Position numbers and translations under genes: made by a program
Assembly (NCBI RefSeq): GCF_900313025.1
Contig: NZ_OMPQ01000012.1
Span: 1 to 64,000 of the forward strand
Length of the DNA stretch: 64,000 bases
Direction: 5' to 3'
Origin: Pseudophaeobacter sp. EL27
Lineage (GTDB): Bacteria; Pseudomonadota; Alphaproteobacteria; Rhodobacterales; Rhodobacteraceae
The notes under the pieces: generated by a model
The model's input: only the letters and a program-made list of their open reading frames with translations
Told to the model about the DNA's origin: nothing
The model's database searches: none
Part shown: positions 2,769 through 64,000 of the stretch, one piece after another
Layout: each line of letters starts with the position of its first letter
Numbering within the stretch: the stretch's first letter is position 1

Positions 2769-5700
2769 TCCGCCGCTATCTTTTGCCCCTGTTTAGATCG
2801 CTTTATTCGGCGCTGATCCTTCTGGCGATTGCGCTTTCGGCCTGCACCTGGTTCTTTGCGCCCTATATTGGCGGCGCAGAATGGCGTCCCTTTGACAGTA
2901 TCCAGGCGCGGGTGATCACCATTGCGGTGATCTGGATCGTTATCCTTTTCATCATAGGGCTGGTGTTCTGGCTGCGTCGCCGTCGCGACCGGGCGATGGC
3001 TGATGACATGGTTGAGGCGGTGGATATCGTTGATGATGACGATGTGATGCTGGAGGAAATCGGCGAGCTGCGTGGCAAATTCAAACAGGCCATGACAGAG
3101 CTGCGTAAATCCAAAAACGGGCGGCGACACCTGAATGTGCTGCCCTGGTATGTGATCATCGGCCCGCCCGGATCCGGGAAAACCACGGCAATTGTCAATT
3201 CCGGCCTGCAGTTTCCGCTGGCGGACAAGCTGGGCAAGGCGGCAATTGGCGGGGTGGGCGGCACGCGCAACTGCGATTGGTGGTTTACCAATGAGGCGGT
3301 GCTGATCGACACAGCTGGGCGCTACACCACTCAGGAAAGTGACGCTGAGGCAGATAATGCCGCCTGGCTCGGCTTTTTGGGGCTCTTGAAAAAGTACCGT
3401 AAACGCCAGCCGATCAACGGCGCTCTGGTGGCGATCTCGCTGTCGGATCTGTCGCTTCAGGACGAGGTAACGCAGAAATCCCATGCCCAAGCGGTGCGCA
3501 GGCGCCTGTCCGAGCTGCGCGAGCGGCTTGGCGTGCGGTTCCCGGTCTATGTTCTGTTCACTAAGGCGGATCTGATCGCGGGTTTTCAGGAGTATTTTGA
3601 CGCCCTGGGCAAGGAGGAACGCGAGCAGGTCTGGGGCTTTACCCTGCCTCTGATCAAAAGCAAAAAAGACCCTGCAGGGATTGAACATTTCGACGATGAG
3701 TTTGCCGGGCTGCTGGGCCAGATGAACGCCCAACTCTTGGAAAAAATGCAGAATGAGACCGATCACCAACGCCGGGCGTTGGTGGCGGGGTTCCCCTCAC
3801 AGGTGGCCTCGATGCGGGCTGTGGCCAAGGAGTTTCTAACCGAGGTCTTTCAGGACAACCGCTATGAGCAACGTCAGATGCTGCGCGGTGTCTATTTCAC
3901 ATCTGGCACCCAGGAGGGGACGCCCATTGACCGGCTGATGCTGGGCATGGCGCAGACCTTTGGCATTGGCCGACAGGCGATCGGTACCGGGCAGGGAACT
4001 GGGCGCTCGTTCTTTTTGACCCGACTGTTTGAGGGCGTGTTGTTCCCTGAGGCGGGCCTGGTGTCCGCTGATGATAAGGTCGAGCGACGTTATCGCTGGA
4101 CGCGGCGTCTGGCCATCACAGCAACGGTTTTGGTGGCTGCGGCCATGGGCGGAATTTGGGTGAATTCCTATTTTCAAAACGCTGAGTTTATTCGCACGGC
4201 TGAAGCAAAGGTGGTCGATTATCAGGCCAGAGCCGCAACCCTGCCGCCAAGCCCGGTTGGTGATACGGATTTGGTGCCGGTGGCAGAGGCGCTCAATCTG
4301 TTGCGCGATATGCCGGGCAATCCGGTGCTGGCAGATCCAAAGCCCGAGCGCGCGATGACCTATGGGCTGTATCAGGGCGAGGTGATCGGCACCCAAACAG
4401 CGCAGACCTACCGTGCAGCGCTCAATCAACGCCTGCTGCCGCGGCTTCTGGTCCGTTTGGAAGAGCAGATCGAAGGCAATGTGAACAATCCGGATGTGCT
4501 GTATGAAGCGCTGAAAATCTATCTGATGCTGGGTCTGCAGGGGCCAATGAACCCGGATCTGGTCAAGGAATGGATGCGGCTGGACTGGGAGTTGGTGGCC
4601 TATCCCGGCGCCGCGCGCGCGCAGTTGCGCAGTGACCTGATGGATCACATGTCGGCGCTGCTGTCGCAGCCGATGGAAGAAATTGCCCTCAATGGCCCTT
4701 TGGTGGAGCAGGCGCAGAATATCCTGTCGGAGATGCCGCTGGCGCAGCGGGTCTACAACGGTATCGTCAACTCCAATCAGGCAACCAGCCTGCCGAAGTG
4801 GCGGTTGACGGAGATTGGTGGCCCCTCGGTCAAACGGGTTTTAGTGCGCAGTTCCGGCAAGCCGCTGAACGAAGGCGTCGAGGGTATCTTTACCTATGAT
4901 GGCTTTAACAACGTGTTCCTGCCTGAGGCCGTCAGCGTTTCCGAACGGGTCCAGAACGAGGCTTGGGTGCTGGGCGAGCGCGCCGGGGATGGCCAGAGCG
5001 AATCGGCGCTTTTGGCACTCAGCCGCGATGTGCTGGATCTCTACTACAACGACTATATCAGCCGCTACGATCAGGTTTTGGGGGATGTGGACATTGTTCC
5101 GCTGGAATCGCTCAGCCATGCGGTTGAGGTGACAAATGTTCTCTCGGGTCCAACCTCCCCGATCATGAATATCCTGACCGAAATCAGCCGCGAAACCCGC
5201 CTGGCCGAGAACCGTTCAGCTCTGGATTCTGCCTCTCTGAACGAAGGTGTTTCGCAGGTTGTTGGCATCGAGACCCGCTCTGGCCTGTCCATTCAAGGAC
5301 AGATCCTGCTTGAGGCTTTGATCAGCTCTGCCGCCAATGCGCCGGGAGAGGCCCCCAAGCCGCCGGGATCCTATGTTCAGGAACGCTTTCAATGGCTGCA
5401 TGATTTGGTGGTCCGCCTGGAAGGGCAGCCCTCGCGTCTGGACGATCTGATGGGCTCTTTGCAGCTGGTTTACCAAGAGCTGAACAAGATGTCGTTCAGC
5501 GGCGTCGCCTCGGGTGAGAGCGGTCAGGCCTTGTTGCAGTTCCAGCAGACAGCCTCGCGGATTGATGGGCCTATCCAACGTTGGGCAACCCAGATTTCGT
5601 CAGGCTCCTCGGGTATTACATCTGAGGGAACGCGGGCATCGATCAATGCGCGTTGGCAATCTGCGGTATTGCCCTTTTGCCAAAAGGCGCTGGACAACCG

Positions 5701-6337
5701 ATATCCGTTCAATCGCCGTGCCCGCGCCGATGTGGCGATGGCGGATTTTGCAAAACTCTTTGCGCCGGGTGGGCTGATCGACGGTTTTTTTGATGAGAAC
5801 CTGCTCAAATATGTGGATACGCGCAGTCGCCCATGGACCTGGAAACGGGTGAATGACGTTGATCTGGGGATCAGTCAGGCAGTGTTGCAGCAGATGCAAT
5901 ATGCGGCTGAAATCCGGGATGCCTTCTTTAATGGTGCAGCCACTCCTTTGGTGCAATTCCAGATCACACCTAAGGCGCTAGACCCCAAGGCCAAGGAAGT
6001 GTTGTTGGAAATTGATGGCACAAAGGTCAGCTACAATCACCGGATGGGGCAGCCCACGCCAGTTTCTGTGAGGTGGCCAGGATCAGTCGGCCTGGCGCGG
6101 ATCACTCTGCTGCCGCAGCGGCGCGGCAATGAAAACACAATGTCGCGCGACGGGCCCTGGGCCTGGTTCCGGCTGCTTGATGCAGCAGAAGTGCGGCGCA
6201 CCAATGTCAGCGATCGGCGCCGGGTGAACTTTCGCGTAGGTGGCCGACTGGCGCTGTTTGAGCTGCAATCGGGATCGGTGGTGAACCCCTTTGCCTTGCC
6301 TGCCATGGCAAAATTCCGCTGCCCGAAGTCGATGTAA
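2765..6337 (+). CDS. tssM: TssM (IcmF/VasK) T6SS membrane-complex ATPase-like protein
   Basis: Large inner-membrane core of the T6SS membrane complex, 1190 aa, the normal family length. Membrane helices are visible at about 7-27, 50-70 and 449-470. The cytoplasmic loop between the second and third carries a P-loop, GPPGSGKT at about 133-140, and a Walker-B-like DTAGRY near 182-187, so it keeps nucleotide-binding residues that some TssM proteins have lost. The rest (from 470) is the periplasmic IcmF-related region and C-terminal beta domain that contacts the TssJ lipoprotein. It sits between tssL (4-base overlap) and tagF (1-base overlap), all in one operon. No tssJ gene is present in the window. 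Confidence 0.96.
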   Translation: MIRRYLLPLFRSLYSALILLAIALSACTWFFAPYIGGAEWRPFDSIQARVITIAVIWIVILFIIGLVFWLRRRRDRAMADDMVEAVDIVDDDDVMLEEIGELRGKFKQAMTELRKSKNGRRHLNVLPWYVIIGPPGSGKTTAIVNSGLQFPLADKLGKAAIGGVGGTRNCDWWFTNEAVLIDTAGRYTTQESDAEADNAAWLGFLGLLKKYRKRQPINGALVAISLSDLSLQDEVTQKSHAQAVRRRLSELRERLGVRFPVYVLFTKADLIAGFQEYFDALGKEEREQVWGFTLPLIKSKKDPAGIEHFDDEFAGLLGQMNAQLLEKMQNETDHQRRALVAGFPSQVASMRAVAKEFLTEVFQDNRYEQRQMLRGVYFTSGTQEGTPIDRLMLGMAQTFGIGRQAIGTGQGTGRSFFLTRLFEGVLFPEAGLVSADDKVERRYRWTRRLAITATVLVAAAMGGIWVNSYFQNAEFIRTAEAKVVDYQARAATLPPSPVGDTDLVPVAEALNLLRDMPGNPVLADPKPERAMTYGLYQGEVIGTQTAQTYRAALNQRLLPRLLVRLEEQIEGNVNNPDVLYEALKIYLMLGLQGPMNPDLVKEWMRLDWELVAYPGAARAQLRSDLMDHMSALLSQPMEEIALNGPLVEQAQNILSEMPLAQRVYNGIVNSNQATSLPKWRLTEIGGPSVKRVLVRSSGKPLNEGVEGIFTYDGFNNVFLPEAVSVSERVQNEAWVLGERAGDGQSESALLALSRDVLDLYYNDYISRYDQVLGDVDIVPLESLSHAVEVTNVLSGPTSPIMNILTEISRETRLAENRSALDSASLNEGVSQVVGIETRSGLSIQGQILLEALISSAANAPGEAPKPPGSYVQERFQWLHDLVVRLEGQPSRLDDLMGSLQLVYQELNKMSFSGVASGESGQALLQFQQTASRIDGPIQRWATQISSGSSGITSEGTRASINARWQSAVLPFCQKALDNRYPFNRRARADVAMADFAKLFAPGGLIDGFFDENLLKYVDTRSRPWTWKRVNDVDLGISQAVLQQMQYAAEIRDAFFNGAATPLVQFQITPKALDPKAKEVLLEIDGTKVSYNHRMGQPTPVSVRWPGSVGLARITLLPQRRGNENTMSRDGPWAWFRLLDAAEVRRTNVSDRRRVNFRVGGRLALFELQSGSVVNPFALPAMAKFRCPKSM

Positions 6338-7023
6338 TGGCAGCGGGGTTTGGAGCTTTTGGCAAGATGCCCGACGTCGGAGATTTCTTTCGGCTCAACG
6401 TGTCTGGCGGCTTTGTGCGGGTCTGGGACAACTGGCTGCAGCAGTTGCTGATGGAAGGGCAGGCCCAATATGGGGCCGGTTTTGACACCCACTACATGTC
6501 GGCGCCGCTCTGGCGGTTTACCCTGGCGGCTGGCCTGGCTGGTCCTAGCAAGATCATGGGGGTTCTGATGCCTTCGGTGGATCGTGTGGGACGTCGCTTC
6601 CCGCTGACCCTGGTGCTGCCTTTGGACACTCCTGGCCCCCCGGCCTTGGACCATTTGCGCGAAGGTGCGCTGTTCGAAAACCTGGAAGAAATTGCCCTCT
6701 CGACGCTTGAAAACGGCATGACGAAATCGCGGCTTGAAGAAGACCTTCAGGCCATAGAGGTCCCAGGTTTACGGGCCTCGGTGCCGCTGCGGCACGAAGG
6801 GGAGACCCTGGTCCTCACGGGTAGCGGCGGTGATGATGCTTTGGTTGCGACCCATCTTGCAGGGGCTTTGCTGGCAAAACAGGTGCCCGGTGGCGGTGTC
6901 TGGAGCACCCATCTGGAGAGCGGACCACGGATGATGGTCAAAGTGGATTTGCCGTTGGGGCGGGCGGGATCCGGGTTGTTTGACCTGGCAGCACCAATTT
7001 GGCGGGAGGCCCAGCCGATATGA
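6337..7023 (+). CDS. tagF: TagF, T6SS post-translational repressor family
   Basis: TagF-family protein (BMA_A0400 type), 228 aa. The N-terminal signature GAFGKMPDVGDFFRLNV followed by WDNWLQ matches the family pattern GxxGKxPxxGDF...WDxWL. In Pseudomonas aeruginosa TagF holds T6SS off by binding the FHA scaffold, in parallel with the PpkA/PppA phosphorylation switch. Both of those partners are next door here. Only the TagF domain is present; in some alphaproteobacteria the domain is fused to a PppA phosphatase, whereas here the phosphatase is a separate downstream gene. The ATG overlaps the tssM stop by one base, and the stop overlaps pppA as ATGA. It is cytoplasmic and has no signal peptide. 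Confidence 0.9.
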   Translation: MAAGFGAFGKMPDVGDFFRLNVSGGFVRVWDNWLQQLLMEGQAQYGAGFDTHYMSAPLWRFTLAAGLAGPSKIMGVLMPSVDRVGRRFPLTLVLPLDTPGPPALDHLREGALFENLEEIALSTLENGMTKSRLEEDLQAIEVPGLRASVPLRHEGETLVLTGSGGDDALVATHLAGALLAKQVPGGGVWSTHLESGPRMMVKVDLPLGRAGSGLFDLAAPIWREAQPI

Positions 7024-7742
7024 CAGATGTCCGGACTTACCGTTTTGTGGCGCAGACCCATGTGGGGCTGAAACGAAAGGTGAATGAGGATGCATTCCTT
7101 GCTTTGCCGGATCACCACATCTGGCTGGTTTCTGACGGAATGGGGGGGCATCAGGCCGGTGATTATGCCAGCGCTTTGATCGTGGATACGGTGGCGTCAC
7201 TGCCGCTTGGACTCGATCCGGCGGCAAGGATGCATGGGCTGCGGGATCGAATACAGACTGCCCACCGGGCAATTCAGGCCGAGGCACAGGCGCGGGGAGG
7301 GGGCACCATCGGCGCGACGGTTGTGGCTCTTGTGCTGGCAAATGGTCATTTCCTCGGCCTCTGGGCGGGGGACAGCCGTCTCTATCGATTGCGAGATGGC
7401 GTGATCGAGCTTCTGACCAGCGATCACTCTGCTGTGGCTGACTACGTTCTGGCCGGCAAGATGGATTGGGACGAAGCCGATCAACATCCCCATGCCAATG
7501 CGATCACCAGGGCAGTTGGGGTCGGCGAAGAGCTGGAGCTGGATAAGATCCGGGGTGTTGTGGAGGCCGGCGATCGGTTCCTGATCTGTTCAGACGGGCT
7601 GACCAAATACGCAACCTTCCCTATTCTGCAGGAGGTGCTGTCGACAACTCCGCTGGAAACCGTTGGTGATCGCCTGCTGCAAGTAGCCCTGGAGGGAGGC
7701 GGAGCAGACAATATCTCCCACATCGTCGTGGATGTGATCTGA
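7020..7742 (+). CDS. pppA: PP2C-family Ser/Thr phosphatase, T6SS PppA type
   Basis: Metal-dependent PP2C phosphatase, 240 aa from the chosen start. Motifs appear in family order: NEDAF near the N-terminus, SDGMGGHQAGDYAS, GDSRLYRL, DHS, then SDGLTKY and a C-terminal ADNISHIVVDV. The aspartates that bind Mg/Mn are all present. In T6SS clusters PppA dephosphorylates the FHA protein and opposes PpkA. An open frame extends 21 bases upstream, but the ATG at 7020 makes the ATGA overlap with tagF seen throughout this operon, so it was preferred. Soluble and cytoplasmic. It is the last plus-strand gene of the operon and converges with ppkA. Confidence 0.92.
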   Translation: MTDVRTYRFVAQTHVGLKRKVNEDAFLALPDHHIWLVSDGMGGHQAGDYASALIVDTVASLPLGLDPAARMHGLRDRIQTAHRAIQAEAQARGGGTIGATVVALVLANGHFLGLWAGDSRLYRLRDGVIELLTSDHSAVADYVLAGKMDWDEADQHPHANAITRAVGVGEELELDKIRGVVEAGDRFLICSDGLTKYATFPILQEVLSTTPLETVGDRLLQVALEGGGADNISHIVVDVI

Positions 7743-7761
7743 CCGGACCTGTGCGACAAAA

Positions 7762-7793
7762 AAGGTGCTGTTCTAGTGGGAGATCAGCACCTT
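7762..7793 (-). terminator. Rho-independent terminator downstream of ppkA
   Basis: A 9-bp perfect stem (AAGGTGCTG / CAGCACCTT) encloses a 14-base loop. Read on the minus strand the right arm runs into six consecutive T residues, so it fits a terminator for the minus-strand kinase gene that ends about 155 bases upstream. It may also stop plus-strand transcription from the tss operon, although it lacks a T tract in that direction. Confidence 0.6.
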
Positions 7794-7949
7794 CGTTGGC
7801 TGGATGAGGCTTCTGTGAACCCTCTCCATAGCTATGAATTCCGATGTCTCTCTCCAAGAACCTGCAATGGCATGCTCTAGAGCAACTTCAAACGCCTGGC
7901 TTTCTTCCTACTGTGTGCTGGCTAAACCACTTTGAAGATGCAGAGGTGG

Positions 7950-10115
7950 TTACGGCAGGGCCGTTTCCAATATCTTGCTGTCCATTGATAGGATCAACCC
8001 GGCATCCCTGGCGCTGTTCTCCTTGAGAGCCTCGGCAAAACCAACAGCGCTTTCGGAGGTGGGACGCAGCCCGGCGAACAAGGGTTCAGAGGAGTGCAGG
8101 ACCAGAACGCGGCTTTTGCCAAGCGTGCTGTCATCGACGCGGAAGGCGAGGCCGCCGTTCAGAGCGGATTCTGCCAGGGTATAGGCCACGCGCACCGAGA
8201 ATGGCCCAGTAGTGTCACCGCGCAGCTCTGCAATCGAGTTTTTCTGGCGCGAGAGATTAGGTAACAGATGAAAGACGTTACCCGAGACATCCAATATGGA
8301 AACCGTTAGAAAGCCCGTACTGATCGTGGCTGGTAACTCTATGTCGATAACCGGGTTTTCACCGACAAAAAACCGTCCCGACGGGTTGGGCACATTGTCA
8401 TTGCCGGTACTGAAGGCGACATCTATTTCCCCGGTCGGTGCGTTTGGCAGCGCACCTTCAACGACGCAAAGTGAGGGGTTCAGGATCTCAACCTCAAAGG
8501 AAATCTTACGGCTCCCGGCGAGGCGACGCAGCGCATCAAACATCCGAACGCGGGTTTCCGACCCGGCAAGACGGCCCGTAACGGTGATTGTATCCTCGGG
8601 ACCAAAGCCGCCCCCCACCGATCCAGGCGTTACATGCAGGGGGCCACAGTCTTCAAAGCCGCCAATCAGGCCGCGCACCTGGGAAATGGCGAGAACCGGC
8701 AGCCGATAGGTGATCTCTACCGTGCCGTCCAATCCGCCAGGCAACCCGTCTTCAAACTTGGCGTTCAGTGCAGCGGCCAGATCGGGATCACTGGTGATGC
8801 CGCTCAGTTTGGCCTGATTGTCGCTGACCGCGAGACGCCATCGCTGGAGATCAGATAGTGGGGTGAGGGTGGCCAGAATATCCTCCCCCCAACTCTCAGA
8901 AATTGCCCCGCTGGAAAGGGTGATATCAGCCTGTTCCACCAGTGCCACCAGCGCATCCCGGCTGTCTTCAGAGGGCATGTTGCCGATGGCACGGCTTGGT
9001 CCGGTTTTGGTTTTTTCGACAATCAGCGTAAAGGGCTGCGCAACCGGGTAGCGAGGCCCTAACAAGGGATCAAACAGGCCTGAGAAGAAGGCACCGGCGC
9101 CAGCCATGCCGAGGGCAAGAATGGCTATCAGAGCCAGGAGGGGGGCTTTACTGCGGGATGTCTCTGCTTGGGTCGGTTCGCTCTTGCGTGTGCTGGTCGC
9201 TTTTGCCGGGGCCGCAGCGTTTGGGACAATGATTGTCGCCTCATCTGAGGGCGGTTCGGGGAGGGGGGGCGTGGCAGCCTCTGGGTCGCTTTCAACGCGA
9301 TCCAGAAAGGCCAGCACATCCGCCGCACTGCCAAGGCGGCTATTTGGATCAGGGTCGCACATCCGCTCGATCAGCTGCTTGAATGGCGCTGGCAATCCGT
9401 CTGTATCGAGTGGCTTTTGTTTGTTTTCAACCACCTCCATGGGGTTTGCCCCCAGCGAGGGAGAGGCGCCCCGGAAGTTGGCCAGTAAGAGTGCCCCCAG
9501 CGAATAGATGTCAGCACGGGCATCGGTATTGCCTGCCAGTTGCTCTGGCGCTGCATAGGAGTATTTGCCGGCAAATTCATTGCCCACAATGGTTTCTGCT
9601 CCAGGGTTGGTATCCTTGGCAATGCCAAAGTCGATGATCACCGCCTTCGCAGGATCGCCATCGCGCAGGATGATATTGTCCGGGCTCAGATCGCGGTGGA
9701 CGATGTTGCGGGCATGGGCCGCCTTTAGGCCTTCGGCGACCCGGCGGCAGATGATCAAAAGATCAGCGGCCTCCATCGGCCCCTGTTTCAGTTTTTTATC
9801 CAGGCCTGGCCCGTCGATATAATCCATCAACAGATAGATATGGCCATCTGGCGTGCGGTGGTTTTCAGAATAGCGCACAACCGCATCATGGCGAATTTCA
9901 CGGATGTTTTCTTCGCGGGCCATCAGGACTGTGAAGTCCTCATTGCCGGAAAACTCCTGCTTTAGAACCTTGATGGCAACGAGGTTGCCAGAAATCTCCG
10001 AACGCGCCTTGTAGACGTTCGACGTCCCGCCCCGGCCCAGGAGCATTTCAATGCGATAAGTATTGTTGAGCAGATCGCCTGGTTGAAAAAGATCACTGGG
10101 CTGGGAGGTGATCAT
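7950..10115 (-). CDS. ppkA: Transmembrane Ser/Thr protein kinase, T6SS PpkA type
   Basis: Hanks-type kinase of 721 aa. The cytoplasmic kinase domain spans about 18-285, with glycine loop GRGGTSNVY (27-35), ATP lysine K49, catalytic HRD at 140-142, N147 and DFG at 162-164. A Pro/Thr/Ala-rich linker follows, then one membrane helix near 324-345 and a periplasmic C-terminal region of about 370 residues with no domain I can name. The layout matches PpkA, which phosphorylates the FHA scaffold to switch on T6SS and senses an envelope signal through its outer part. In the catalytic loop the usual lysine of HRDLKPxN is replaced by serine (HRDLSPDN). It is transcribed toward the phosphatase gene. A T6SS role is inferred from context. 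Confidence 0.88.
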   Translation of the reverse strand: MITSQPSDLFQPGDLLNNTYRIEMLLGRGGTSNVYKARSEISGNLVAIKVLKQEFSGNEDFTVLMAREENIREIRHDAVVRYSENHRTPDGHIYLLMDYIDGPGLDKKLKQGPMEAADLLIICRRVAEGLKAAHARNIVHRDLSPDNIILRDGDPAKAVIIDFGIAKDTNPGAETIVGNEFAGKYSYAAPEQLAGNTDARADIYSLGALLLANFRGASPSLGANPMEVVENKQKPLDTDGLPAPFKQLIERMCDPDPNSRLGSAADVLAFLDRVESDPEAATPPLPEPPSDEATIIVPNAAAPAKATSTRKSEPTQAETSRSKAPLLALIAILALGMAGAGAFFSGLFDPLLGPRYPVAQPFTLIVEKTKTGPSRAIGNMPSEDSRDALVALVEQADITLSSGAISESWGEDILATLTPLSDLQRWRLAVSDNQAKLSGITSDPDLAAALNAKFEDGLPGGLDGTVEITYRLPVLAISQVRGLIGGFEDCGPLHVTPGSVGGGFGPEDTITVTGRLAGSETRVRMFDALRRLAGSRKISFEVEILNPSLCVVEGALPNAPTGEIDVAFSTGNDNVPNPSGRFFVGENPVIDIELPATISTGFLTVSILDVSGNVFHLLPNLSRQKNSIAELRGDTTGPFSVRVAYTLAESALNGGLAFRVDDSTLGKSRVLVLHSSEPLFAGLRPTSESAVGFAEALKENSARDAGLILSMDSKILETALP

Positions 10116-55522: not shown

Positions 55523-56638
55523 CTAGTGGCAGTCAGCCATGGCTGCACCAAGCTCTTTCAACAGCGCAGGGTAGAAGCCAGCGCCCAGCTCCAGACCTGT
55601 GCCCAGTGGATCGATGACCACAGTTTTGGCGCCGCTGCCCTCCAGCACAGTTGCCACCATATCAGGGTTGAACTGCGGTTCAGAGAAAACGCAGGAAACC
55701 TGCTTATCTTTCACCACTTGCTGAATCTCTGCAATCCGCGCAGGGCTTGGATCAGAGGCATCCCCCAGAGAAATGGCCCCAGCCGCCTGCAGGCCAAAGC
55801 TGTGCTCGAAATACTGATAGGCATCGTGGAACACCACAAACCCCCCGCTCCGCAGTGGTTCCAGACCCGTCAAGACTTCGGCCTTGGCTGCTTCAATTTC
55901 CTGCTTTCCTGCGGCGGCATTGGCGGCATAGGTGGCGGCGTTTTCCGCGTCATGCTCTGACAGCTCTGCCGCAATCACATCCAGCCAGAGTTTGGCGTTT
56001 TCAGGTGACAACCAGGCATGCGGGTCCAGGCCCTCGTGGTCGTGACCCTCATGGCCGCCATGGTCGTGCCCCTCGTGATCATCGTCATGACCATCTTCAT
56101 GCTCATCCTCATGGGCATGCTCGGCCTCGGCGTGTTCCTCATGGTCATGATCGTCGTGGTCGTCATGCTCAGCGTGATCATCGTGATCGTCATGTTTCTC
56201 ATGGTCGTCGTGGTCATCTCCATGATCATCGTGGTGGTCGTCGTCATGACCCTCTTCTTCACCATGATCATGAGCCTCAAACCCAACGCCTTCACGGAAA
56301 GGTAGCGCCAAGCCACCTTCAAGCTCCAACAGCTCCACAACATGGGCGTCCTTGGCCAGCTCTTCCACCGCGCCTTCCAGCCACGGAGTCAGCGCCTCGC
56401 CCATCCAAAAGACGACATCCGCCCGCGACAAAGCCAGAGCCTCAGAAGGGCGCATGGAATGATGATGCGGCGAAGCGCCCGCTGGCACCACCATGTCAGG
56501 CTCTCCCACGCCCTGCATGACCCGCGCAACCAGACCGTGCACAGGCGCAATATCGGTTGCAACTTTTGGCACATCTGCCAGAGAAACGCCTGCAAACCCC
56601 ATGAGGGCCGCAACAGAAGTCAGAGGAGTTTTAAGCAT
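55523..56638 (-). CDS. znuA: Zinc-binding periplasmic protein ZnuA with extended His/Asp-rich loop
   Basis: Periplasmic zinc receptor of the ZnuABC importer, 371 aa from the chosen ATG, longer than most ZnuA proteins. It has a signal peptide (MLKTPLTSVAALMGFAGVSLA) and Zn ligands in VHGLVARV, GASPHHHSMRPSE, DPHAWLSPENAK and FHDAYQYFE. Between the first and second lobes lies an insert at about 122-207 composed almost only of His, Asp, Glu and Gly, with about 26 histidines by my count. Such loops are known in ZnuA as zinc chaperone or sensor segments, but this one is unusually long and acidic. A Cys pair (SCVF, DCH) may bridge the C-lobe. It is divergent from zur. Confidence 0.94.
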   Translation of the reverse strand: MLKTPLTSVAALMGFAGVSLADVPKVATDIAPVHGLVARVMQGVGEPDMVVPAGASPHHHSMRPSEALALSRADVVFWMGEALTPWLEGAVEELAKDAHVVELLELEGGLALPFREGVGFEAHDHGEEEGHDDDHHDDHGDDHDDHEKHDDHDDHAEHDDHDDHDHEEHAEAEHAHEDEHEDGHDDDHEGHDHGGHEGHDHEGLDPHAWLSPENAKLWLDVIAAELSEHDAENAATYAANAAAGKQEIEAAKAEVLTGLEPLRSGGFVVFHDAYQYFEHSFGLQAAGAISLGDASDPSPARIAEIQQVVKDKQVSCVFSEPQFNPDMVATVLEGSGAKTVVIDPLGTGLELGAGFYPALLKELGAAMADCH

Positions 56639-56648
56639 GGGACTCTCA

Positions 56649-56663
56649 TGTAATTTTATAACA
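56649..56663. promoter_or_regulatory. Zur-box-like palindrome between znuA and zur
   Basis: TGTAATTTTATAACA pairs its outer six bases with one mismatch around TTT, resembling the T-G-T-x-A-T ... A-T-x-A-C-A form of Zur sites. It lies 11 bases upstream of the znuA ATG and 94 bases before zur. A second half-like CATAACATAT is near 56690. With Zn-loaded Zur bound, znuA and the zur-znuC-znuB operon would both be off. Inference from motif and position. Confidence 0.55.
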
Positions 56664-56756
56664 TCGCACGACTTGTTAAACGTCATACCATAACATATCA
56701 AGAGCCGAGTTTACCAAAGGCCAGGCAGCGCCCCTTCTCAGCGGAGACCCAAGACC

Positions 56757-57245
56757 ATGGATTCCATCGGATTTGAGACCCATGACCACGCCAGCTGCAT
56801 TGCTGACTGCATTGAGACAGCGAATGCCCAGTGCAAAGCGCAGGGGCTGCAGTTCACGCCGGTGCGCAAACGGGTTTTGGAAATTCTTCTGCAAGAGCAC
56901 CGCGCGTTGGGAGCCTATGAGATCCTGGATCGGCTGCGCGAAGAAGGGATGGGGTCACAGCCACCTGTGGCCTATCGGGCATTGGATTTTCTGGTGACCA
57001 ACGGCTTTGCCCATAAAATCGAGCGCCTGAATGCCTTTATTGCCTGTACCCATCCCGGCGAAGACCACGCCCCGGCCTTTATGATTTGTCGGATGTGCAA
57101 ATCCGTCGCCGAGGCCCAGACCCTTCCAAGAAATGGACAGTTGGGCAAGGCCGCCCGAGACGCAGGTTTTCAGATCGAACGCACCGTGGTCGAGGCCGAG
57201 GGCCTCTGCCCCAAGTGTCAAAAAGCCGACGCTAAATGCATCTGA
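56757..57245 (+). CDS. zur: Zinc uptake regulator Zur (Fur family)
   Basis: A 162-aa Fur-family repressor. The winged helix is in TPVRKRVLEILLQEHRALGAYEILDRLREEG and PPVAYRALDFLVTNGFAHKIERLNAFIACTHPGE, with the PxVYRAL-type recognition helix. Structural zinc cysteines appear as ICRMCK and LCPKCQ, and H/D ligands in HAPAFMICR. The long N-terminus (DHASCIADCIETANAQC) is Cys-rich. Its gene leads zur-znuC-znuB, and it is divergent from znuA around the candidate box. Its stop overlaps znuC by 10 bases. Confidence 0.94.
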   Translation: MDSIGFETHDHASCIADCIETANAQCKAQGLQFTPVRKRVLEILLQEHRALGAYEILDRLREEGMGSQPPVAYRALDFLVTNGFAHKIERLNAFIACTHPGEDHAPAFMICRMCKSVAEAQTLPRNGQLGKAARDAGFQIERTVVEAEGLCPKCQKADAKCI

Positions 57246-58021
57246 TCTCGCTACAGAACCTTTCGGTCAGCTATGGCGGCAACACGGTTCTATCAAATGT
57301 GACTTTTGGCATCTCTCCGGGTGAGATCGTCACCATCGTTGGGCCCAATGGCTCTGGCAAATCCACCCTGCTGCGCAGCGTCATTGGCGCCCAAGTGCCA
57401 AGCCAGGGCAGCGTGACACGCAGCCCCGACCTGCGCATCGGCTACGTGCCGCAAAAACTGCATATCGATCCCACCCTGCCAATGACGGTGCGCCGGTTTC
57501 TCAGCCTGCCAGACAGGGTGACGAACCAACAAGCGACCAAGGCCCTGGAACAGGCCGGCGCCGGGCAGCTGTCCAACCGTCAGATGGCTGATCTGTCAGG
57601 GGGGCAGTTTCAGCGCGTCCTGCTAGCGCGGGCGCTGCTGTGTCAGCCACAACTGTTGATTTTGGATGAGGCCACCCAGGGGTTGGATCAACCCGGCTCC
57701 GCCGCCTTTTACCAACAAATCGAGAGCCTGCGACAAACTCTGGGCTGTGCAATACTGATGGTCAGCCACGAGCTGCACGTGGTGATGGCCGCGTCAGATC
57801 GGGTGATCTGCCTCAACGGTCATATCTGCTGCGAAGGCGAACCCGAACATGTGGCCTCGGCACCAGAATACCGCGCCCTGTTTGGCAGCGGCACCCAGGG
57901 CGCCCTGGCCCTGTATCGCCACGAACATAATCACAGCCACGACCACAGTTGCGGCCATGATCACGGCCTGGAAGAGGCTATCTCCCAAGCCTCCCATGCC
58001 AGGGAAGAGACCAAAAGATGA
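57236..58021 (+). CDS. znuC: Zinc ABC transporter ATPase ZnuC with His-rich tail
   Basis: ATPase of the zinc importer, 261 aa. Walker A GPNGSGKST is at 36-44, signature LSGGQFQRVLLARAL near 120, Walker B LLILDEATQGLD and H-loop MVSHELHVV. The C-terminal tail, after the ATPase, contains a histidine cluster (HEHNHSHDHSCGHDHG, about 226-241) that could bind zinc in the cytoplasm as feedback. This tail is an addition to the minimal ZnuC fold and is found in some alphaproteobacterial ZnuC proteins. It overlaps zur by 10 bases and znuB by 4. Confidence 0.95.
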   Translation: MHLISLQNLSVSYGGNTVLSNVTFGISPGEIVTIVGPNGSGKSTLLRSVIGAQVPSQGSVTRSPDLRIGYVPQKLHIDPTLPMTVRRFLSLPDRVTNQQATKALEQAGAGQLSNRQMADLSGGQFQRVLLARALLCQPQLLILDEATQGLDQPGSAAFYQQIESLRQTLGCAILMVSHELHVVMAASDRVICLNGHICCEGEPEHVASAPEYRALFGSGTQGALALYRHEHNHSHDHSCGHDHGLEEAISQASHAREETKR

Positions 58022-58845
58022 TCACCCTGTTTGACAGTTTTCTGCTGCGTGCGGCCTTTGCCGGAACTGGAGTAGCGATCGCCGCTGCCCCACTGGGCTG
58101 TTTTGTGATCTGGCGCCGCATGGCCTATTTTGGCGATGCCACGGCGCATGCCTCGATCCTGGGTGTTGCTCTGGCCCTGGGATTTCAGGTCCCGATCTTT
58201 GCCGGTGTGCTGATCATTGCCCTGCTGATGGCCACCGCTGTCTCCAGCTTGAGCGGCCGGGGTTTTGCAATGGATACTCTGCTGGGCGTATTGGCACATT
58301 CATCCCTGGCCTTTGGACTGGTCGCCGTATCCTTTTTGCAGGGCATCCGTATTGATCTGATGGCCTATCTGTTTGGGGACATCCTGGCGGTAAGCCGGAT
58401 GGATCTGGCGGTGATCTGGGGCGGCGCCGCCCTGGTTCTGCTGCTGCTCTGGGCCAGATGGTCCGCTCTGCTCACCGCCACGCTCAGCCCTGATCTTGCC
58501 TATGCTGCAGGGATCAACCCAAAGCGTGAACAACTGGTCCTGACCATTGCCTTGGCTCTGGTAGTGGCTGTGGCCATCAAGGTGGTCGGGGTTTTGCTGA
58601 TCTCTGCCCTGCTGCTCATCCCCGCCGCCGCTGCCCGTCCTTTTGCCACAACACCCGAACGTATGGCCGCGATTGCCGCCGGGATCGGTGCTCTCGCAGC
58701 CCTTGCCGGTCTGCAGCTGTCCTTTATGCTCGACACTCCGACCGGGCCAACTATTGTCTGCGTTGCTGCTGTGCTGTTTGCGCTGACAAATCTGGGTAGC
58801 ACGGCCTATCGCCAGATGGCGGCCAATTCAGACAGGCGAACCTAG
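58018..58845 (+). CDS. znuB: Zinc ABC transporter permease ZnuB
   Basis: An ABC-3 family permease, 275 aa with about eight hydrophobic helices. Family blocks: APLGCFVIWRRMAYFGDATAHASILGVALAL, VLAHSSLAFGLVAVSFL, DLMAYLFGDILAVSRMDL, AYAAGINPKREQLVLTIALALVVAVAIKVVGVLLISALLLIPAAAARPFA. It begins with an ATGA overlap to znuC and completes the zur-znuC-znuB operon. The gene converges with the hybrid kinase gene 16 bases beyond its stop. Confidence 0.95.
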   Translation: MITLFDSFLLRAAFAGTGVAIAAAPLGCFVIWRRMAYFGDATAHASILGVALALGFQVPIFAGVLIIALLMATAVSSLSGRGFAMDTLLGVLAHSSLAFGLVAVSFLQGIRIDLMAYLFGDILAVSRMDLAVIWGGAALVLLLLWARWSALLTATLSPDLAYAAGINPKREQLVLTIALALVVAVAIKVVGVLLISALLLIPAAAARPFATTPERMAAIAAGIGALAALAGLQLSFMLDTPTGPTIVCVAAVLFALTNLGSTAYRQMAANSDRRT

Positions 58846-58861
58846 GTCTGACAGTAAACCA

Positions 58862-61153
58862 TCAGGTCTGGCGCAGCCGAACTTCAGCCCCGAGATCTTG
58901 AGGGTCTTCGATCCAATCGTGTATGGCTGCAAGCAGCGCCTTTTTGCTTATCGGTTTGCTGAGGAAATCATCCATGCCAGCCGCAAGGCATTTTTCACGG
59001 TGGGACTCCAACGCATTGGCGGTCAGGGCGATGATATGACAGCCCGGGCTTTGACTGGCGGATTCAATCTCGCGGATCTTCATCGTTGCCTCGACCCCAT
59101 CCATCACCGGCATCATCATATCCATCAGGACAATATCTGGCCGCACCTCCTTAAACCGCTCGACGGCCTCCGCCCCATTTGCGGCGATAACAATATCAAA
59201 CCCAGCATCCTTGAGCATCCGGGTCACCACCAACTGGTTGGTCCGGTTGTCTTCTGCAATCATCAGCTTGATACAATGGGCCTTCTGCGGGTGCACCGAG
59301 CTGGGAGAGGTGGCGCTCTGCTCTGGTTGCTCATGGCTGTGTGCCCGCCCCAGAACCTGCTTCAACTGCGCCGCGCGCAGGGGCTTATGTATGATATTAC
59401 AGCCCTCCAGCCCAACCTGATCGGGTTGCATCGCCGCGAGATCACCTGACGAGAGCATGACAATTGGCAGTGTCGCAAATTCTGGCATGGCATGAATGCG
59501 CCGCGCCAGTTCACGCCCGTCCATCCCCGGCATTTGGTCTTCCATGATGACAAGATCTAAACGGTCGGAAGTCAGACGCAAATCCAACATCACCTCCACG
59601 GTCTGACTTGCGCTACTGGCCTCAAGACTGTGCATGCCCCAGGCGTTCAACTGTTCCGTCAAAATCAGACGATTCAGCTCCTGACTACCAACAACCAGGC
59701 CCGTCAATCCCTGAAGAGCCAGCGGTTTTACAGGGATCTCTTCAACCTGTTCAGCAAGCGGCAAAGGCAGTTGAACCACAAAAACAGAGCCCTCCCCGGC
59801 TGTGGATTGCACTGTAACCTCCCCCCCCATCAAGGTCAGCAAACGCGCTGAGATAGCCAGGCCAAGCCCAGTACCTTCAAAATTGCGCGTCGCACCACTA
59901 TCCACCTGTTCAAAGGCACTAAAGACCGTATCAAGCCGATCTTCGGGAATGCCTATCCCAGTATCAGTGACGTTGATCGTCAGGCCGTAGCCGTTGGAAT
60001 TTTTCTCACCAGAGACATCAACATAGACATGGCCGATATCAGTGAATTTGACCGCATTGCCAATGATATTGGTAACCACCTGACGGATCCGGCCAACATC
60101 GCCCTCAAAGAACTCCGGCAGCTCGGGATCATATCGCAAGATGATCTCAATCCCCTTGGAAGTGGCCTTGGGTGAGAGCAGAGTGACCACATCCTCGATC
60201 GCGGTCTGTAGATTAAAAGGCGCTAAATCCAATTCGATCTTACCTGCTTCGATCTTGGAAAAGTTGAGGATATCATTGATAATTGTCAGCAGCGCCGCGC
60301 CAGATTTTGAAATGGTTTTCGCATAGAATCTCTGATCCTCATCCAGATCGGTCTCCATGATCAGCTCTGCCATGCCAATCACCCCATTCATCGGCGTGCG
60401 GATCTCATGGCTCATGTTGGCCAGGAATTCCGACTTGGCCTGATTGGCAATGTCAGCTTCTTCGCAGGCCCGCTCCAGAGCCAATTCGCGTTCGTTGCGC
60501 TCAATAAAGGTATCTTCCAGTACACCCACCGAGAAGTTGAGCGCCCAAAACTCCCGCGAGGCGTACCAGGGCAGTTTCCCCACTCGCCCATGTGCACCGG
60601 CTAGAACCTCCGACATCCTGAGGTGGATAGTTTGCAACGGCTGCAAGGCCAGCATGTTCAGCAAACCCAGAATGGCAGCCGACAAAGCGGCAACCGCAAG
60701 AACTGTCCACAAAATCGCATAGCGGACTCTTTCCTGGACCATGGCCTGCCCTTCCAGCATAGACCACTGCACAATCATTGTGCCGAACTTGAACCCTTCC
60801 ATTTCCACCGGTTGTTCATAGGTCACAAATTCTTCCTGTGCCGCCGCCCCCCTTCGCGTGGCAGTGGCAATCATCATGTCCTCGGCATTCAGAATTTGGA
60901 TGGAGCGGATTTTTGGGGTTCGCTCCAAAGCCTCATAAAGCCCGGTTTCCAACACAGGCACATCTTCCACAATGATGGATTCAAGCATCAACCCACTGAG
61001 CAGAGAAATAGTCAGCCCGGCCTGTTCACTCAACTGCTCGCGCATCCGATTGCCTTCGGAGCGCTGTGCAGCAGCACCCACAACCAGCGCAACCAAAAGG
61101 GCGGCCAGCGACAGCGACAGCACGATCTGAAACAGGATACCAGTGCGTTTCAT
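58862..61153 (-). CDS. Membrane hybrid sensor histidine kinase with two receiver domains
   Basis: A 763-aa sensor. TM1 is at about 5-27, followed by a periplasmic segment of about 115 residues and TM2 near 145-170 with a HAMP-like linker. The kinase core has phospho-His H249 in [16 protein letters not shown]-box [11 protein letters not shown] and G boxes [10 protein letters not shown] and [13 protein letters not shown]. Receiver 1 (about 495-620) keeps the phospho-Asp in [12 protein letters not shown] but lacks the N-terminal acidic pair (VVGSQELN). Receiver 2 (about 640-760) is complete ([26 protein letters not shown]). No Hpt domain is attached, so a partner is needed. It lies 18 bases after the PhnD-type binding protein gene. 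Confidence 0.9.
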
Positions 61154-61171
61154 TTCTCTGCTTTTCCAGCG

Positions 61172-62044
61172 CTAAAAGCTACGGCTTTGTTCGATAGCGT
61201 CGCGGATCAGATCGTAGTCGGCATCTTCGCTCGCCAAAAACCCATTCTTGGAAACACGCCGGACAATCTCTTCGTTTTGCGTTGCCAACATGATGTCCTG
61301 CATCGCCTGCACGATCTCACCATCAAGGTCGGCTGCCGCCAGCCAGGGCTTTGTCACATTTTCAAAAGAGAGAAGAACCCGGATAGGAACCCCCTTGGCA
61401 ACAAGTTTTCTATAGGTGCTTTCTTTCAACGCCCCAGCCGCAAACTTCCCGGCGCCAACCGCTTCGCCGACCAAATCATGCCTACCCAGATAGGAAAAAC
61501 TGTGCAGATCCTCGCCTGAAATACCAACATCGAGCAATTGCGCCTGTGCCAAGTACCGTCCGATTGTGGACAGCTCATCCCCAAAGGCGAAGGTCAGCCC
61601 CGCCAGCTCTTCCAGAGATTGGACCGGGCTGTCACGATGAACCACAATTACCCCATTGAACCGCTTTTTGCCCTTCTTGGACTCGATCGCCACGATCCGA
61701 ATCTGCGGATTGAGATCCTTGACCATGACATAGGAGGCTGGGCCAAAACGGGCGAAATCCACTTCGCCTTCGGCCAGCTGGCGAACGCCTTCGGCATATT
61801 CCTTGGCAATCGTCATCTTGATCGTGACTTTTTCTCCCAACCGCTCGGTCATCCGGTCCGCCAAAAAGGTCAGGAAGGGACGATACTTACGTACCGTTTC
61901 GGTCGGTTTGTCAGCCGCATAAGTTCCAAAAGTAAGAGTTATCTCAGCACGCGCATCATTTGGTGCAAAGCTCAACAACCCCAAGACCAGCAAAAGCAGG
62001 CCCTTCTGGGCAAAAGAAAATACAAAGCTATAAAATTGCCGCAT
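61172..62044 (-). CDS. PhnD-type periplasmic binding protein, probable sensor partner
   Basis: A 290-aa periplasmic binding protein of the phosphate/phosphonate (PhnD) type. The signal peptide (KGLLLLVLGLLSFAPNDARA) precedes LTFGTYAADKPTETVRKYRPFLTFLADRM, VRQLAEGEVDFARFGPASYV, GVIVVHRDSPVQSLEELAGLTFAFGDELSTIGRYL and LGRHDLVGEAVGAGKFAAGALKEST. The GPASY and S-G-R-type blocks match the family, although the ligand may not be phosphonate. No ABC permease or ATPase is adjacent. It is co-transcribed with the hybrid kinase, so it likely delivers a ligand-bound state to that sensor. An in-frame ATG 63 bases upstream was rejected because it would displace the signal sequence. Confidence 0.87.
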   Translation of the reverse strand: MRQFYSFVFSFAQKGLLLLVLGLLSFAPNDARAEITLTFGTYAADKPTETVRKYRPFLTFLADRMTERLGEKVTIKMTIAKEYAEGVRQLAEGEVDFARFGPASYVMVKDLNPQIRIVAIESKKGKKRFNGVIVVHRDSPVQSLEELAGLTFAFGDELSTIGRYLAQAQLLDVGISGEDLHSFSYLGRHDLVGEAVGAGKFAAGALKESTYRKLVAKGVPIRVLLSFENVTKPWLAAADLDGEIVQAMQDIMLATQNEEIVRRVSKNGFLASEDADYDLIRDAIEQSRSF

Positions 62045-62267
62045 GGTTGAGCCTCCTGGCTTAGTTGCTGCGTACCGACCACGTTGGTTATGTCTTGTAT
62101 CAACCAATAAGTGCGTTGATCACGTTAATTTTCCTTCACCTCTTCCAGAAAATTTAAGTGAAAACCCGGCTCAAGGTCTACATTTAACCATTCGGTAATA
62201 CTTTGGGTATTTTTTCATAAAATTGTTACAACTATAAAGATCTCCTCAACGGACAACAGGTCACTCA

Positions 62268-64000
62268 GTGCACATACCCTCCTTCTCCCAGAAAAAACGC
62301 AGACAATGCTGCACGTCCCTATCGGCGGCAATTCTTTTGGTTGTACCCCTTGAAGCCCAGGCCATTCCCTCACCCGAGTTGGTCATTGGCTCTGTCACCT
62401 CACTGTCGCAAGTTTTTGCTGTTGGCCTGGCCATGCTTTCCGGTGCAGGCGCAATTGTAGCTTCAAAACTGGGCCTCAAACCCACCGCCGCGGCGCAGCG
62501 CTACCCGGTTAAGCTCATTAGTGCTTTGTCGCTCTTTGTGGCCCTGCTGGCGGCGGCAAATTACTGGCAATTCAACGCACAGAAGACTGCAGAGCAGACC
62601 CGCCTGCAAGCCACTTTGCTGCGCCCTGCACAGTTTGCAGGCACTGAAATCAAGGATGACACCCTAAAAGAAACCAGTTTCTCCAAACAGGAAGGCAATC
62701 CTCTGGCCATCTCTACCGATCAGGCCGCCGCCCTGCTGGCAACCGGAGAGGCCGCTTTCTTTGACATCCGCGAAACCGGCGAAAACGCCATGGGCAGCCT
62801 GCCCGGCGCCGCCCATATCCGTTTCCCTGATTTTCTAGAGTCCCGTCCGCTTCAGCCCGGACAGCGCGCGGTGGTGTTTTGTCACAACGGCAATCGCAGC
62901 TCCGAGACCTGCGCCGAACTTGCCAAGCTGGGCATTGATTGCAGCTTTATTGCCGGGGGCATCGAGAAATGGATCGTCGAAGGGCGCTCCTTCAGCGATG
63001 CTGATGTGCAGACCCTTGCCGATCTGCGCGCCATTCCGGAATATGACAACAAGGATACCCTGCTCAGCACCGCCGACTTTACCGCGCTGGTCGAAACCGA
63101 AGATCTGCAGATCGTCGATACCCGCTACCCCGGTGATTTTGCGGCAGGCCACCTGCCGGGTGCCATCAATATTCCAATCCGCGCCCTACCAACGGATGAG
63201 CTGATGCGCCGCATCGCCGCGCTGGACGACAGGCCAACCGTGGCCGCCTGCTATGATCGACGCAGCTGCTTCATGGGGCAGGTTCTGGGGCTAGAGCTGA
63301 CCCAACAGGGTATCGATTATCAGGGGCGCTACACCCTGCCATGGGAATACTTCATTGCCCCTGCCCCCAAACCCCATGTTCAGGACTGGCTGGCAGAGCA
63401 ACAACAGACCTATTGGCAACAGGCGGTCTCGGCAGTTGCTGCGGCTTTGATCTGGACGCATGAGCGCAGCCACCTCTTGCTTGGGCTATTTGCCCTGTCT
63501 CTGCTGACCCGCCTGCTGGTACTACCTGTGGCGCTCAAATCAGAACGCGACCAGATCATTACCAATGACAGCGCCAACGAACTTGCGGCGCTCAAATCCA
63601 AACTTGCCCAGGATCCCGTGCGCAAGGCCCGTGCCATTCAGGCCTTTTATGCTGCCAAGGGGCTGACGCCTTTGCGCAACCTGACTGCACTTCTGTTTTT
63701 GCCCGTGATGATGCTTGGCGTCTCTGCCGCCGGCGAGGCCAGCGGCTTGCTCTCAATCAACCTGCTCTGGATCGCGGATCTTGGTCTGCCGGATCCGCTG
63801 TTTGCCCTGCCGCTGCTGTTTTGTGGATTGGCGGCACTCTATCTGGTCTGGGCTGTCGCCAAGACGGCGCGCCAGGTCAAGATTTGGCTGTTTCTCGGCG
63901 TGCCCGTGTTGTTTGCAATGGTCTACGGGCTCAGCGCGGCGGCCAATGCCTACCTCTGCTTCAGTCTTAGCCTGTTGCTCCTGCAACGAGCCTATGTGAC
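62268..64000 (+). CDS. Tandem rhodanese-YidC/Oxa1-like membrane fusion protein (3' truncated by window)
   Basis: Open to the window edge, 577 codons visible, GTG start. The N-terminal part has a signal-like stretch (SLSAAILLVVPLEAQA) and two hydrophobic helices (about 45-67 and 84-103). Rhodanese 1 (about 150-245) has active-site Cys in VFCHNGNRSSETC. Rhodanese 2 (about 265-350) has QIVDTRYPGDFAAGHLPGAINIP and VAACYDRRSC. From about 385 the protein becomes membrane-bound and resembles YidC/Oxa1: helix 1 with Arg in LLTRLLVLPVALKSER, a KLAQDPVRKARAIQAFYAAKGLTPLRN hairpin, then LLWIADLGLPDPLFALPLL and later helices. The stop is not reached. I judge the architecture real; it is divergent from the PhnD gene. 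Confidence 0.8.
   Translation, partial: MHIPSFSQKKRRQCCTSLSAAILLVVPLEAQAIPSPELVIGSVTSLSQVFAVGLAMLSGAGAIVASKLGLKPTAAAQRYPVKLISALSLFVALLAAANYWQFNAQKTAEQTRLQATLLRPAQFAGTEIKDDTLKETSFSKQEGNPLAISTDQAAALLATGEAAFFDIRETGENAMGSLPGAAHIRFPDFLESRPLQPGQRAVVFCHNGNRSSETCAELAKLGIDCSFIAGGIEKWIVEGRSFSDADVQTLADLRAIPEYDNKDTLLSTADFTALVETEDLQIVDTRYPGDFAAGHLPGAINIPIRALPTDELMRRIAALDDRPTVAACYDRRSCFMGQVLGLELTQQGIDYQGRYTLPWEYFIAPAPKPHVQDWLAEQQQTYWQQAVSAVAAALIWTHERSHLLLGLFALSLLTRLLVLPVALKSERDQIITNDSANELAALKSKLAQDPVRKARAIQAFYAAKGLTPLRNLTALLFLPVMMLGVSAAGEASGLLSINLLWIADLGLPDPLFALPLLFCGLAALYLVWAVAKTARQVKIWLFLGVPVLFAMVYGLSAAANAYLCFSLSLLLLQRAYV

Follow-up and report, generated by a model that had tools for sequence, protein, structure and literature searches.

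One polypeptide with two rhodanese domains, a YidC/Oxa1-type membrane core and a rifampin-phosphotransferase-like dikinase, and its constant partners, a putative sensor pair

What might a cell do with a single protein in which two rhodanese domains are followed by a membrane part resembling an insertase and, as it turned out, by a dikinase? The question is raised by a gene at the very end of the stretch of DNA analyzed here, 64,000 nucleotides from Pseudophaeobacter sp. EL27 (the window), which comprises bases 1 to 64000 of a contig of 104175 bases and holds only 577 codons of the gene. Open reading frame analysis showed the frame to be free of stops from GTG 62268 to the window end, and when followed further along the contig it ran to base 66278 and encoded 1336 aa in all. 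In Pfam the domains of the full protein come in the order rhodanese (twice), 60KD_IMP/YidC, PPDK_N ATP-grasp, and PEP-utilizers swivel. An earlier note on the window had described an uninterrupted frame with two rhodanese modules and a YidC-type segment, a description confirmed by Pfam and Foldseek, and the motifs it quoted were found and are conserved. That note also called for the sequence past 64000, which we obtained; it adds the dikinase half (PPDK_N 116 bits, PEP-utilizers 48.9 bits), outside the view of the earlier reader. With this half in view, the protein looks less like a regulated insertase and more like a phosphotransferase that spans the membrane. In most of the plasmid rows listed, the protein bears the name "PEP/pyruvate-binding domain-containing protein," which conceals its multi-domain build. 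The features of the locus are collected in Table 1.

Table 1. Features of the fusion gene and its divergent partners in the window
Feature	Position	Strand	Basis
Fusion gene, first 577 of 1336 codons	62268..64000	+	Start GTG 62268; ends at contig base 66278
Signal peptide (predicted), residues 1-32, AXA-type site just before conserved I-P-S-P-E-L	62268..62363	+	Conservation; putative cleavage
Two N-terminal membrane helices (predicted), centers at residues 55 and 88, basic loop between	62403..62567	+	Family-mean hydropathy, charge
Rhodanese domain 1, residues 147-240, loop C205-HNGNRS	62706..62987	+	Pfam, fold, conservation
Rhodanese domain 2, residues ~265-362, loop C328-YDRRS-C334	63060..63353	+	Second Pfam stretch, conservation; limits approximate
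YidC/Oxa1-type five-helix core, residues 385-577, groove-type Arg415 at 63510-63512	63420..63998	+	Pfam, Foldseek, conservation
Periplasmic binding protein of the PhnD/PtxB family, encoded divergently from the fusion	61172..62107	-	Pfam 156 bits, relatives, linkage
Hybrid histidine kinase with HisKA, HATPase_c, and two receivers, encoded 18 bp downstream of the binding protein	58862..61153	-	Pfam, linkage
TTAAC-N6-GTAA, CtrA-like, in the shared divergent promoter region	62184..62198	+	Sole window match, 0.04 expected; conserved

Modules of the fusion protein and their predicted placement

Conservation was read from an alignment of 40 rows (34 full-length frames, L040 to L044, and L070), which include close relatives and are not independent. 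The Rhodanese Pfam profile matched the 1336-aa protein in two stretches with 76.5 bits in all, and the AlphaFold2 model matched the fold of the single rhodanese 3gk5 in Foldseek (TM by target 0.88, rmsd 1.2). The first loop, CHNGNRS, was invariant in all 40 rows, Cys205 included; in the second, CYDRR with Cys328 and the closing C334 were likewise present in 40/40 rows, residue 333 being Ser in 37 and Gly in 3. By these three lines of evidence both domains have a rhodanese fold with an active-loop cysteine, as had been read from the CHNGNRSSE and CYDRRSC stretches. We take the first loop to be of the usual sulfurtransferase type and the second, CYDRRSC, to be unusual against known rhodanese loops. 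Tandem rhodanese sulfurtransferases of the GlpE/SseA type also have the fold twice with a Cys in each loop; the fusion differs from them in its presumably unusual second loop and in that its domains are predicted to be periplasmic and membrane-bound.

The 60KD_IMP profile (PF02096, Pfam cut-off 35) matched residues 406 to 577, scoring 37.9 bits when given the window part and 36.7 bits when given the full protein, and the NCBIfam YidC profile TIGR03592 gave 30.8 bits for the fusion versus a cut-off of 84.3. PF02096 scores of five relatives lay above the Pfam cut-off in L040 (44.7), L028 (37.7), and L051 (37.4) and below it in L041 (32.6) and the two-gene L050 (24.1). In Foldseek searches, an AlphaFold2 model of residues 1 to 577, modest in quality (mean pLDDT 71.6, pTM 0.41), matched the YidC of Bacillus halodurans (3wo6; TM by target 0.70, rmsd 4.3) and that of Escherichia coli (6al2; E 2.7e-07). 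The YidC/Oxa1-like segment proposed in the earlier note was thus recovered by structure and, marginally, by profile, which also disposes of the concern raised there that the membrane part might match no YidC fold.

The groove of YidC has a key Arg, and the E. coli protein carries a P1 domain before the core. Arg415, in the first core helix of the fusion, turned out to be invariant in 40/40 rows together with the flanking P420 and K424. Like the YidC/Oxa1 insertases (PF02096; 3wo6, 6al2), the fusion has the core fold, a groove-type Arg, and a basic predicted cytoplasmic hairpin, and in both an outside segment precedes the core, the rhodaneses occupying the place of E. coli P1. Unlike them, it falls under the NCBIfam cut-off, is joined to rhodaneses and a dikinase, and coexists with an ordinary YidC (210.5 bits, Pfam) encoded in the same genome. 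Given this separate ordinary YidC, a housekeeping role as insertase is improbable for the fusion, and since its YidC-type part barely clears the Pfam cut-off and lies far under the NCBIfam one, that part may be a mere scaffold. In a tree of YidC cores the fusion rows, split rows, and ordinary YidCs fell apart, with sister relations unreadable; two of the nine ordinary-YidC rows (L061 and L066) were in a wrong reading frame and were disregarded.

In the dikinase half, the positions Lys619, Arg674, Glu761, Asp819, Glu821, Gln833, and Arg835, which from family knowledge we take to form the ATP site, were conserved in 40/40 rows. His1287, presumably the swivel histidine, was found in 39 rows with a gap in the remaining one, most probably L027, where the frame diverges close to the end. 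The ATP-grasp and His-swivel domains, each with its residues, place this half in the dikinase family. The C-terminal half was modeled for the L003 orthologue in place of the window protein (756-residue query; pLDDT 86.0, pTM 0.81), and the model has the three-domain fold of rifampin phosphotransferase: the six best Foldseek matches were all structures of that enzyme, 5hv1 first with an E value of 1.3e-27, and PEP synthase and PPDK ranked behind. These six alignments extended over 865 to 918 columns (913 at E 1.3e-27) with 19 to 20% identity, and their whole-chain TM was low (0.30 to 0.38 by query, 0.35 for 5hv1; rmsd 20.8 to 23.6), probably because the domains lie differently.

The curated NCBIfam rifamycin phosphotransferase profile scored 138.8 bits versus a cut-off of 999. 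PEP synthase has a C-terminal PEP-binding barrel (PEP-utilizers_C), for which no Pfam match was obtained up to E 1 across the 1336 aa, and the chain stops after the swivel; we rejected a PEP synthase identity because this barrel is missing. With rifampin phosphotransferase (5hv1, 5fbt) and the PEP synthase/PPDK dikinases the fusion shares an ATP-grasp domain, a central domain, and a His swivel in the same order, as well as the conserved ATP-site and swivel residues; unlike rifampin phosphotransferase, it is membrane-bound by prediction, only 19 to 20% identical, and far under the curated cut-off.

Family-mean hydropathy peaked at residues 24, 55, 88, 412, 481, 522, 548, and 572. The residues A32 (40/40 rows) and A30 (36/40 rows) lie ahead of IPSPEL and are consistent with a signal peptidase-type AXA site. 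With loop limits chosen by us, the loops predicted to lie inside had mean charges of +4.8, +3.6, +3.0, and +5.7 and those predicted to lie outside -1.0, -0.1, +0.1, -2.5, and +0.1. The last five peaks and the inside-positive loops predict a five-helix core with an N-out/C-in orientation, as in YidC. Since the loops are positive inside and neutral to negative outside, a periplasmic location is predicted for the rhodaneses and a cytoplasmic one for the dikinase, an arrangement that the topology of YidC itself also demands.

Distribution and a two-gene form in another class

A scan of genome contigs for the fusion gave 37 loci. Full-length frames of more than 1250 aa, 34 in number with that of the window included, could be aligned; L024, L029, and L039, cut by contig ends, and the split L028 were outside this alignment. 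In the family of the host the fusion was found in 14 of 394 sampled genomes (E ≤ 1e-60), belonging to 13 genera and each with one stop-free place. The class sample had it in 2 of 385 genomes, both from the host's family, and in the phylum sample 5 of 398 genomes matched, 3 of them from that family; the three samples overlap. A match was also found in 82 plasmid records, from Phaeobacter (59), Leisingera (17), Tritonibacter (3), Parasedimentitalea (2), and Ruegeria (1), and in 81 of the 82 one place covered at least 80% of the query. Against these full-length orthologues in genomes and plasmids, the concern of the earlier note that a sequencing or assembly error had joined two genes has a negligible probability and was rejected, even though the metagenome-assembled L028 frame is broken and the single gene is replaced by two in a pair of genomes from another class.

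In the L028 locus (4499-8518) the YidC part and the dikinase are separated by an in-frame stop, with an in-frame ATG 21 bases on; an assembly error, a mutation, and a natural split are indistinguishable here. ParA/ParB-type genes, annotated in relatives, lie at L002 15110-18841, beyond the window, and suggest that the contig of the window is an extrachromosomal replicon. The locus-bearing plasmids of relatives are of about 108 to 115 kb (many in Leisingera), 205 to 291 kb (Phaeobacter), or other sizes. A passage of one paper mentions a phosphoenolpyruvate synthase gene on the Leisingera aquimarina plasmid pAqui_B243 (PMC3910692), and passages of two papers on a 262 kb Phaeobacter inhibens plasmid concern a different gene.

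In the two genomes of another class (L050 and L051), the first gene codes for a similar N-terminus, in which an AxA site is followed by ALPTPDAL, and for a core of the YidC type (PF02096, 24.1 bits in L050 and 37.4 in L051, cut-off 35), and the second for the dikinase half. The two genes overlap by 4 bases; the dikinase gene is whole in L050 but truncated in L051, where the contig stops, and its product scored 312.7 bits against the family profile in one genome and 220.8 bits over the remaining part in the other. The middle segment gave no Pfam rhodanese match in L050 or L051, and a profile of the rhodanese region matched it with an unconvincing 12.8% probability (E 0.0023). Neither the binding protein nor the kinase turned up in the 20 kb surveyed per locus, each contig stopping shortly after the dikinase gene. 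A search started from the product of the first gene uncovered no additional two-gene form in the 398 phylum genomes and no match in plasmids. We would read the two-gene form as this machine divided between two proteins, the whole of which may share an ancestor with the fusion. As it has no recognizable rhodaneses and no sensor pair was found beside it, sulfur handling and the sensor may be non-essential to the basic machine.

The sensor pair, its promoter, and other neighbors

The divergently encoded binding protein scored 156 bits with PF12974 (cut-off 27), which places it in this family. By tblastn it adjoins the fusion in 34 of the 37 genome-contig loci, and the kinase does so in 33. Both are missing from L024, L029, and L039, where the contig end cuts the upstream side, and in L027, also cut upstream by the contig end, there is a partial binding protein and no kinase. 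In L028, L040, and L041 the pair is convergent and lies on the other side of the fusion, so the linkage outlasts rearrangement. in L042 the fusion is flanked, where its contig ends, by a fragment of the kinase, and the pair sits at the end of another contig; L043 has no pair beside the fusion on its 17 kb contig, the pair being on another contig of the same genome (G019). The binding protein was found in 10 of 295 family genomes (E ≤ 1e-25), nine with the fusion and one (G089) in which the pair is present and no fusion was detected at E ≤ 1e-10. The remaining five fusion genomes, searched singly, all had it, bringing the count to 14 of 14 carriers. The binding protein and the hybrid histidine kinase are thus well supported as constant partners of the fusion.

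The nearest solved relatives of the binding protein are phosphonate- and phosphite-binding proteins. Its FGP motif is preceded by Arg in 35/35 aligned rows (RFGPASY), versus Tyr in the three best solved relatives (YFGPLSY), and this Arg may indicate that a different anion is bound. The window protein is devoid of Cys, and none of the 35 aligned rows has a Cys after residue 60. In AioX systems, according to a passage in PMC5908839, a PhnD-family protein senses an oxyanion together with a histidine kinase, with Cys106 as a pocket residue; arsenic sensing of this kind is unlikely here, as the pocket Cys is missing. The PhnD-like domains of the kinases TtrS and ThsS are thought to bind tetrathionate and thiosulfate, respectively (a passage in PMC5408782), and the analogy offers a lead only to such sensing by our pair. 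Like AioX-AioS-AioR and TtrS/ThsS, the window pair combines PhnD-type binding with a histidine kinase, oxyanion sensing being presumed here; it differs from them in having a separate, Cys-free binding protein, a hybrid kinase, and a constant enzyme partner, and in that no response regulator gene lies beside it in the window.

Other neighbors vary; the zinc-permease gene znuB, for example, was found in 27 of 37 loci. In the window the zinc-uptake genes znuA, zur, znuC, and znuB occupy 55523-58845 (from the sequence and the annotation of relatives), and ZnuA has a long His/Asp-rich stretch. A 134- to 143-aa protein that by the look of its sequence resembles a stand-alone response regulator is encoded near the locus, upstream of znuA, in L017, L018, L019, and L020. 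Downstream, at L002 11324-15025 and beyond the window, relatives' annotation indicates an arginine deiminase family protein, a 5-guanidino-2-oxopentanoate decarboxylase, and an aminotransferase, probably an arginine-derivative cluster, present in 3 to 6 of the loci whose neighbors were clustered.

The divergent promoter region holds the element TTAAC-N6-GTAA in 30 of 36 divergent loci (L002, 32 genome-contig loci, and three plasmid loci), which are related and do not represent 36 independent events. Outside those intergenic stretches it occurred once in 807170 bases, inside the L052 binding-protein gene, and it was present in 0 of 1163 overlapping segments of like G+C elsewhere. The exact element was also found in 0 of 22 upstream stretches checked afterwards, comprising five of the six element-less loci and 17 convergent, unlinked, distant, or newly fetched ones, the divergent L044 and L070 included. 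An exact TTAA-N7-TTAA of the TTAAC type lies upstream of the fusion in L023 and L043; a third match, in L027, was a plain A/T run. The whole genome has 6 sites of TTAAC-N6-GTAA versus 29 for the pattern read backwards, and inspection by eye of the frames near the other five revealed no obvious common theme.

CtrA sites are given as TTAAC-N5-GTTAAC in a passage of PMC7232146 and as TTAA-N7-TTAA and TTAACCAT in one of PMC6180460. Differing from the CtrA consensus in one half-site, TTAAC-N6-GTAA is a candidate CtrA site. No Rfam family was matched in the 6.5 kb around the locus. Together, the pair and its CtrA-like divergent promoter (58862-62267) would constitute a dedicated sensor in its own right.

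A proposed mechanism and its alternatives

That one chain combines two rhodaneses, a YidC/Oxa1-type core with a groove-type Arg, and a rifampin-phosphotransferase-like ATP-dependent dikinase is well supported by the findings above. Each module comes from a known family; for their joining we found no known system. No protein with this layout was described in the open-access literature as searched by titles and abstract openings, a scope that holds few subscription journals, which agrees with the statement of the earlier note that no characterized system is built in this way.

The reading we prefer, to which we assign a probability of roughly 0.35, is an enzyme spanning the membrane and served by a sensor of its own that would capture, transfer, and phosphorylate a substrate, with the substrate, the transport, and the catalysis all putative. 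The binding protein would sense an oxyanion and signal through the hybrid kinase, and the periplasmic rhodaneses would pick up a sulfur-bearing group. This group, or a substrate that carries it and is dissolved in the membrane, would pass along the YidC-type groove to the inner face. There the dikinase would phosphorylate it with ATP as the phosphate donor, and a single molecule would thereby couple capture, transfer, and phosphorylation. It is conceivable, if unlikely, that the fusion represents a machine of a new kind for active transport or group transfer, in which the YidC-type core, in place of a classical transporter fold, would ferry a substrate from periplasmic persulfide carriers to the phospho-histidine dikinase in the cytoplasm. 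The substrate, sulfur-bearing or dissolved in the membrane, would be trapped there through phosphorylation, and such a machine would be made as one polypeptide here and in two-gene form in the other class.

A different possibility, which we consider tentative and somewhat on the unlikely side, is a transmembrane signal converter: the rhodaneses would read the periplasmic sulfur or redox state, the core would serve as a scaffold, and the signal would set the activity of the cytoplasmic phosphotransferase, which would yield a metabolite or phosphorylate a partner, for instance the receiver domains of the hybrid kinase. The constancy of the sensor pair, the marginal YidC score, and the unusual CYDRRSC loop are all consistent with it. 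So is the finding that the neighbors common to most loci include, on visual inspection of how their sequences begin, no gene resembling a response regulator; one response-regulator-like neighbor cluster was seen by eye in 4 loci. Against it, the invariance of Arg415, P420, and K424 goes beyond the needs of a plain anchor, and the loop of the first rhodanese is of the ordinary sulfurtransferase type.

The idea of the earlier note, a dedicated insertase whose core inserts or folds one membrane partner while the rhodaneses and the dikinase regulate or modify this client, now appears quite unlikely. The YidC fold, the groove Arg, and the basic predicted cytoplasmic hairpin speak for it, and the ordinary YidC in the same genome would make the fusion a specialized copy; however, among frames of at least 60 aa no obvious membrane-protein client recurs beside most loci, the near-universal neighbors being the binding protein and the kinase. 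The wider suggestion of that note, sulfur chemistry on the periplasmic side coupled to insertion or transport, may still hold. We give equally little credence to a kinase for a membrane lipid or hydrophobic metabolite, in which the core would give the dikinase access to a membrane-dissolved substrate and the rhodaneses would act on the same substrate outside. Rifampin phosphotransferase binds a bulky hydrophobic substrate, and the dikinase fold is nearest to this enzyme, ahead of PEP synthase and PPDK, but none of the four annotated neighborhoods inspected contained a lipid-pathway gene.

If the YidC-type core works as a non-insertase, the range of functions of the Oxa1 superfamily would widen, and if the dikinase phosphorylates what the rhodaneses capture, a new coupling of ATP, sulfur, and the membrane would be at hand. 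The fusion gene is present in the marine laboratory strains Phaeobacter inhibens 2.10 and Ruegeria sp. TM1040, which makes these propositions directly testable.
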